NCBI RefSeq assembly: GCF_005080845.1
Contig: NZ_CP034858.1
Location: 1-64,000, forward strand
DNA from: Buchnera aphidicola (Rhopalosiphum padi)
Lineage (GTDB): Bacteria; Pseudomonadota; Gammaproteobacteria; Enterobacterales; Enterobacteriaceae
Direction: 5' to 3'
DNA length: 64,000 bases
The notes beneath the pieces are model-generated. The model had not been told where the DNA came from, made no database searches, and worked only from the letters and a program-made list of their open reading frames with translations. Shown here one piece after another: positions 49,554 through 50,733 of this stretch. Position numbers and translations under genes: made by a program. Each line of letters begins with the position of its first letter. The first letter of the stretch is position 1.

Positions 49554-50587
49554 TTATAATAATTTTATTTTTCCTGAAGAATTAATAAAATCTACTTCAG
49601 GTTCTAGGTATATCTCGAATTTTTTTAAAATACATTTTTGTATTGTTTTCGCTAATTTCAAAATTTCTTTTGAATTTGCGTTTTTTAGATTAATTAATAT
49701 AAGTTTTTGTTTTTTATAAATTGCTGCATTGCCAATTTGAATGTTTTTAAAATTATATTTTTCAATTAACCAAGCAGCAGAAATTTTTATGAAACCGTTG
49801 TATTGAATATAATGTGGTACATTAATGTATGAAGATAAAATTTTTTCTGCTTTTTTAAATGTAATAATAGGATTTTTAAAAAAACTTCCTGCATTGCCTA
49901 ATTTTTTAGGATTAGGTAATTTTTTTTTTCTTATTTGACATACTATATTAAATATTTTATAAGCACTTATTTTCAATAATTTTTTACTTTTTAAAAGTGA
50001 TGGGAAAATAATAGGTTTCCAATTTTTCTGTATTTTTATACCGACTGCAATAATTGCGTATCCATAATTATATTTCTTTTTAAAAATACTACTTCGATAA
50101 GAAAAATTACATAAGTTTTTTTTAAATCTAATTATTTTACCATTGTCTAGAGAAATAATATCTACGTATTCACATATATTTTTTAATTCTAAACCATAAG
50201 CACCAATATTTTGAATAGCTGCCGATCCTACTGAACCAGGAACTAAAGCTAAATTTTCTAATCCGAAGAGACCCATTCGTAATGTATATTTAACTAAATC
50301 ATGCCATTTTTCTCCTGAAAAAACGTGTAATAACCAAATATTTTGTCTTTCTTGGATTTTTATTCCTTTTATTCGGTTAACAATAACTATTCCTTCATAG
50401 TTTTCTAAAAAAAGTACATTGCTACCTTCACCTAAAATTATATAAGGAAGATTAGATAATTTACATATTTTCCATATGTTAATTAATGATTGAATTGTCT
50501 TAACAAAAACAATTTTTTTTGCTGTAACATCTATTGAAAATGTGTTTAAATCTTTTAAAGATCGAGAAAGTTTTTTTTTTTATACAT
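49554..50587 (-). CDS. murB: UDP-N-acetylenolpyruvoylglucosamine reductase MurB, start out of frame in a poly(A) run
   Basis: NADPH-dependent FAD enzyme that makes UDP-MurNAc for peptidoglycan. The MurB reading frame is continuous from the stop at 49554 back to about 50579 and aligns with E. coli from the N-terminal NTFSI through ILGEGSNVLFLE, NLALVPGSVGS, GNAGSFFKNP and LEPEVDFI. It has no ATG before the in-frame stop at 50582-50580. The only sensible start, ATG at 50587 followed by TAT, is joined to the rest by eleven A (50581-50571); nine or twelve would be in frame. The 240-codon stretch from the internal ATG at 50276 lacks the FAD-binding front part. Either transcriptional slippage, a strain-specific defect or a sequencing error. 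E. coli's next genes, birA and coaA, are absent. Confidence 0.9.
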
Positions 50588-50733
50588 AAAATTTTAAATA
50601 CTAACGTAGTTGTTTTTTTAATTTTTAAATAAAGTTTAATTTTTTAAAATCTAAAAAAGTTAATATAAATTTGATGTATAATATATCAAAAACATTCAGT
50701 TTTACATATCAAATTTTAATGGAACTTTCAATA

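Follow-up and report, generated by a model that had tools for sequence, protein, structure and literature searches.

A frame break at an A tract after the start codon of murB in Buchnera aphidicola of Rhopalosiphum padi, and its probable correction by RNA polymerase slippage

The stretch of DNA analysed here, called the window throughout, comprises positions 1 to 64,000 (64,000 nucleotides) of contig NZ_CP034858.1 of Buchnera aphidicola from Rhopalosiphum padi. On its minus strand an ATG and a TAT codon are followed by eleven A, and these by a long frame that runs uninterrupted to its natural stop. A first-pass annotation made from the letters alone had read this arrangement as a murB put out of frame just behind its start codon, and re-reading of the sequence confirmed both the arrangement and its coordinates. 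The features are as follows.

50585..50587, minus strand: ATG, the native start codon of murB, out of frame with MurB in R. padi Buchnera
50584-50582, minus strand: TAT codon after the murB ATG
50571..50581, minus strand: A11 tract, one base short of frame
50555..50587, minus strand: short open reading frame from the murB ATG when read unshifted, 10 residues and then TAA
49554..50570, minus strand: intact MurB frame, 338 codons plus the natural stop (at 49554), first codon CTT at 50570
50274..50276, minus strand: first ATG in the MurB frame, codon 99

The 338-codon frame is MurB (UDP-N-acetylmuramate dehydrogenase), as indicated by the curated model NCBIfam NF000755 (430.8 bits, cut-off 277) and by the presence of both Pfam domains, FAD_binding_4 at 19-149 and MurB_C at 206-329; the E. 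coli MurB structure 1mbb aligns over 2-336 of the R. padi protein. From the ATG to the first MurB codon there are 17 nt, where in-frame relatives have 15, 18 or 21, and the earlier arithmetic that nine or twelve A would join the two is right. Upstream of CTT the MurB frame holds a stop and then three AAA codons only, and its earliest ATG, GTG or TTG is codon 99 (50276), which agrees with the statement that no other ATG occurs for about 100 codons. Codon 99 falls within the FAD-binding domain match, so that initiation there would remove most of that first domain, as had been proposed; a 240-residue protein beginning at this ATG is listed for the window (P0020). The locus thus presents a single indel in a long A tract with the rest of the frame intact, the form known from poly(A) frameshift genes rescued by slippage. 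A11 runs are rarer than chance in the window as a whole: its two strands together hold 2, whereas dinucleotide shuffles give a mean of 9.7, as if selection acted against long tracts.

The start region was compared across 36 Buchnera genomes, 35 of which hold a murB match, in answer to the suggestion that the tract be aligned across aphid symbiont strains. All 35 read an ATG followed by an A-rich stretch at the same place, the second codon being mostly TAT, TAC, CAT or TGT before the A-rich codons begin. Of these ATGs, 31 are in frame and four are one base short (17 nt from ATG to the first aligned codon), namely those of the Buchnera of R. padi, R. maidis (G205, CP032759) and Melanaphis sacchari (G225), and of genome G220. 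By this distribution, the ATG at 50587 is the native murB start. Three further genomes (G209, G212 and G214) were first flagged as out of frame at murB and turned out to be in frame from a farther ATG. The motif SLKxLNTF directly behind the tract is conserved in all four genomes with the broken start, in which a standard start would lie too far downstream to include it, and the murB frames of R. padi and R. maidis contain no stop. The start lesion is therefore common to these two and is unaccompanied by decay, as expected of a gene rescued by slippage. A second site, an A10 run near codon 73, carries a one-base-short lesion in G220 and G194, which gives G220 two murB lesions (at the start and near codon 73) and G194 a single internal one. 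In a search of genome G073 no murB match, no mraY match and no murA over the cut-off were found, an apparent loss of the wall pathway that contrasts with the frame-broken genes elsewhere in the genus.

Selection on murB was assessed between R. padi and R. maidis by the method of Nei and Gojobori with Jukes-Cantor correction. The two genes show 33 base differences in codons 1-97 (dN/dS 0.23) and 85 in codons 98-338 (dN/dS 0.33); the corresponding dN/dS values are 0.20 for mraY, 0.28 for murD, 0.09 for ftsW and 0.19 for murG. When the same changes were placed at random, 23.6 (sd 2.2) amino-acid changes were obtained for codons 1-97 and 60.2 (sd 3.5) for codons 98-338, against 14 and 43 seen, and in neither part was any of 4000 simulations as low as the observation. 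No stop has arisen, where 2.7 would be expected in codons 1-97 (P of none 0.05) and 4.8 in codons 98-338 (P 0.007); for the first part, this lack of stops is only marginal evidence. Both parts of murB thus evolve under purifying selection in this pair, much like the intact mur genes, and the product upstream of the internal ATG therefore matters. The finding of fewer amino-acid changes than in any simulation argues against a dead murB and hence against the fixed defect that had been offered earlier as an alternative; the loss of constraint and the further lesions that mark a pseudogene are absent from the R. padi gene. In comparisons with S. graminum (G198), codons 1-97 have a higher dN/dS, at 0.44 for the R. 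padi gene and 0.39 for that of R. maidis.

The condition of murB is shared by other genes of the pathway, which the first-pass annotation had not seen. Eight wall genes were examined (murB to murG, mraY and ftsW); the mra cluster was covered in 35 genomes, all except G073, which has no mraY match. In R. padi, an A10 run splits each of murC, murE and murF at one point, and murD has no lesion, so that four of the eight genes (murB, murC, murE and murF) are out of frame. R. maidis shows the same murC, murE and murF splits and in addition a murD that is one base short at codon 46, at a T8 next to an A7, which brings it to five of eight (murB to murF). Downstream of their lesions, the single-lesion murC, murE and murF frames of R. 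maidis have dN/dS values of 0.14 to 0.26 against R. padi. The genes murB to murF of R. maidis and their R. padi counterparts are accordingly present, with a single lesion each (none in R. padi murD), and under selection. Over the 35 genomes, 56 of 280 wall-gene copies are broken. In a separate search, murA was found undivided in both R. padi and R. maidis; in the putative A. kondoi Buchnera (G199, at G199:C1:427155-428395) it lies in two overlapping pieces, 1-69 and 67-415, offset one base short.

As controls, open reading frames of the reference Buchnera of A. pisum were located in R. padi, 49 of them within the window and a further 100 in a separate 120 kb. Within the window, murB alone is frame-broken among the 49 compared. 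Among the 148 control frames besides murB there is one clear tract lesion, one possible case (c56) and one decayed gene. The first of these lies in a gene that we take from its sequence to be glpF-like, and the last is presumably a cmk-like gene.

G000:C1 about 342051, plus strand: glpF-like gene, A11 after the start in the phase opposite to that of murB, otherwise one open frame
G000:C1 about 346149, minus strand: cmk-like remnant with several lesions, decayed
G000:C1 about 367140, plus strand: c56, without an in-frame start near the expected place; a nearby ATG lies in another frame, and there is no long A run

Two other control frames flagged for a distant start have an ordinary in-frame ATG further in, a third is cut by the window edge, and a few more were flagged where the A. 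pisum reference frame is itself shorter or split. Frame changes among the window's reading frames are also rare in the relatives, with 0 of 51 in R. maidis (its murB start not counted) and 1 of 51 in S. graminum. Fisher's test of four of eight wall genes against 1, 2 or 3 of 148 controls gives P values of 1.4e-5, 4e-5 or 1e-4, which are a guide, since the mur genes were not chosen blind.

The tract lesions of the wall genes lie almost exclusively in one phase. At runs of at least nine bases in the eight genes of the 35 genomes, 54 of 56 lesions leave the frame one base short and 2 the other way; these lesions are not independent, and their equality with the number of broken gene copies is a coincidence. 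By gene they fall on murF (30), murC (10), murE (8), murB (6), mraY (1) and ftsW (1). Outside this count, with no run reaching nine, are murD of R. maidis (T8) and murD of M. sacchari (no run, other phase); frame differences close to the start of a gene (around codons 11-18 in murD, 2-22 in ftsW and 14-18 in murC) or to its end (for example murC 476-483) were presumed to reflect differing gene ends and left uncounted. A midpoint-rooted tree was built from mraY, murD, ftsW and murG, and so includes some of the genes under study; it groups R. padi with R. maidis with a support of 82% (protein) or 86% (DNA). Parsimony on this tree gives about 14 changes from frame to one base short, about 13 in the reverse direction, and 2 into the other phase. 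Twenty-nine of the 35 genomes have murF out of frame, as does the root in all 500 sampled reconstructions, so that under parsimony its broken state is reconstructed as ancestral to the 35 sampled genomes. As a cause of the phase, a simple mutational bias towards contraction fits poorly, returns (about 13) being about as frequent as breaks (about 14), although parsimony on one tree is not proof.

A frame that is one base short can be put right by one extra base in the RNA or by a minus-one shift of the ribosome. In our preferred reading, to which we assign a probability of roughly 0.7, murB is truly broken in the DNA and works through slippage of RNA polymerase. While copying the A11 tract the polymerase would slip back and add one A in a fraction of the transcripts; in these the ATG would be in frame with MurB, yielding full-length enzyme in smaller amounts than an intact gene. 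The parts of this explanation that we infer are the occurrence of slippage, how efficient it is and the reduced dose of MurB, a reduction that is plausible. In Buchnera transcripts, 151 of 157 insertions lay in homopolymers, as against 16 of 57 deletions, and errors rose with run length (PMC5574713; the discussion of that paper gives slightly different deletion counts), and this excess of insertions, 151 to 16, predicts the one-base-short phase. For one inactivated locus in the Buchnera of R. padi, slippage is moreover reported to be able to correct the mRNAs (PMC3164680, citing Tamas et al., 2008). A further point in favour is that R. maidis Buchnera still makes a wall (PMC9116674) with murB to murF all out of frame. 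The rescue suggested when the locus was first annotated is in this way supported by the comparison of genomes, which favours it. Several observations count against it. The murB lesions in G220 and G194 and the missing match in G073 show that murB can decay, the A11 of the glpF-like control is in the opposite phase, and the dN/dS of codons 1-97 against S. graminum is raised. Traverse and Ochman, too, reported no frame-restoring transcript error in Buchnera LSR1 (PMC5574713).

Minus-one ribosomal frameshifting, in which the lysyl-tRNA re-pairs one base back on the A run and the ribosome enters the MurB frame, fits the sequence equally. The phase is right for it in all four murB start lesions and in 54 of 56 tract lesions, the A11 holds a slippery heptamer A_AAA_AAA in phase, and E. 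coli dnaX shifts on A_AAA_AAG (PMC5009743). Against it, the tract begins only two codons into murB. A simple motif test of the 25-37 nt ending with each of the four R. padi tracts found no Shine-Dalgarno-like motif, and pseudoknot-free folding of the 80 nt that follow each tract gave structures hardly more stable than those of mononucleotide shuffles (z -0.7 to -1.7). We therefore place slippage in the RNA first and the ribosomal shift second, given the excess of homopolymer insertions, the slippage correction reported for R. padi and the lack of a stimulator in these searches; the shift is rather improbable as the explanation of murB, and it could act together with slippage.

That murB is a recent or early pseudogene, dead or dying, is a considerably weaker proposition. 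Tract lesions have been described as a possible first step in gene erosion (PMC3017870), and the state of G073 and the two lesions of G220 would be in keeping with such a course. In R. padi and R. maidis, however, the lesion is shared, selection has been kept and the frame holds zero stops, while true decay in the same genome looks like the cmk-like remnant. Public annotation assumes that translation begins within the intact frame at a non-standard codon, giving R. maidis a protein of 325 aa from codon 13 (ATA) and M. sacchari one of 317 aa from about codon 21 (P0002 and P0035). Such a start is very doubtful, since the codons before 13, LNTF included, are kept in the out-of-frame genomes and 31 of 35 relatives have the ATG in frame. 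The base-count error also raised at first annotation, for which the proneness of homopolymers to error speaks, is the least credible of these alternatives, because the same one-base-short state stands in the independent PacBio-plus-Illumina assembly of R. maidis, M. sacchari and G220 share the murB phase, and chance errors would not put 54 of 56 lesions in one phase.

Read as a slippage-rescued poly(A) gene, murB would add a case to a kind already reported in this organism. Such rescue, described by Tamas and co-workers for Buchnera and Blochmannia (via PMC3164680, PMC5009743, PMC3017870 and PMC3890641; the review's reference 244 is presumably Tamas et al., 2008), likewise concerns A+T-rich endosymbionts and genes that are intact apart from a single A-tract indel; the reported cases include a locus of R. 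padi Buchnera as well as cell-wall genes of an aphid endosymbiont. What sets murB apart is that its tract follows the start codon, and the one-base-short bias and the genus-wide count come from the present analysis. Degnan et al. (2011; PMC3164680) described homopolymer frameshifts in murF, murE and mraY of Buchnera, the same genes and kind of lesion as among the wall genes here, with murF intact only in ApTokyo (A. pisum Tokyo, G224 here) among their strains; they infer four independent inactivations of murF, whereas the 35 genomes point to an ancestral break with later returns to frame. For the Buchnera of Myzus persicae, single poly(A) indels were kept as merged gene models, and the authors judged the genes functional because both sides of the indel are conserved, as in murB, but the accessible sections of that report do not mention murB and give no count by phase or gene class (PMC3890641). 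In dnaX of Thermus thermophilus, transcriptional slippage likewise yields mRNAs in more than one frame, as proposed for murB, and there it gives two products, whereas the unshifted product of murB is a 10-residue peptide (PMC5009743). A limited literature search found no paper joining transcriptional slippage in Buchnera with peptidoglycan. The part that deserves attention is that the lesion pattern is pathway-wide, phase-biased and old.

This pattern bears on the cell wall of R. maidis Buchnera. Smith et al. (2022; PMC9116674) removed frameshifted coding sequences as likely pseudogenes and scored murF, murC and/or murE as lost in Aphidini Buchnera; R. maidis Buchnera takes a D-alanine probe into its wall although murC, murE and murF were scored absent, and compensation was proposed for a symbiont still building its wall. 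A 2023 review repeats this view in its text, where other enzymes may have taken over, and lists in its table murF in 29% and murB, murC and murE in 97% of 38 genomes of its group. Slippage rescue would explain the R. maidis wall without new enzymes, a simpler reading that is new here, with the proviso that the labelled line Rma-NM-1 and the sequenced R. maidis line need not match at the tracts. The case also warns that filtering out pseudogenes can give a wrong picture of endosymbiont pathways. Beyond murB, and much more tentatively, frame-broken A tracts may be a kept property of the peptidoglycan precursor genes of these Buchnera and no mere series of chance events, in which case almost only the correctable phase is tolerated and precursor supply is set by slippage. 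This broader proposal rests on the murF lesion predating the split of the sampled lineages, on the breakage of all of murB to murF in R. maidis and on the near-single phase, and it is rather doubtful at present. If it is true, polymerase slippage would act as a throttle on wall precursors in bacteria with few regulators, and R. maidis Buchnera could build its wall without new ligase activities.
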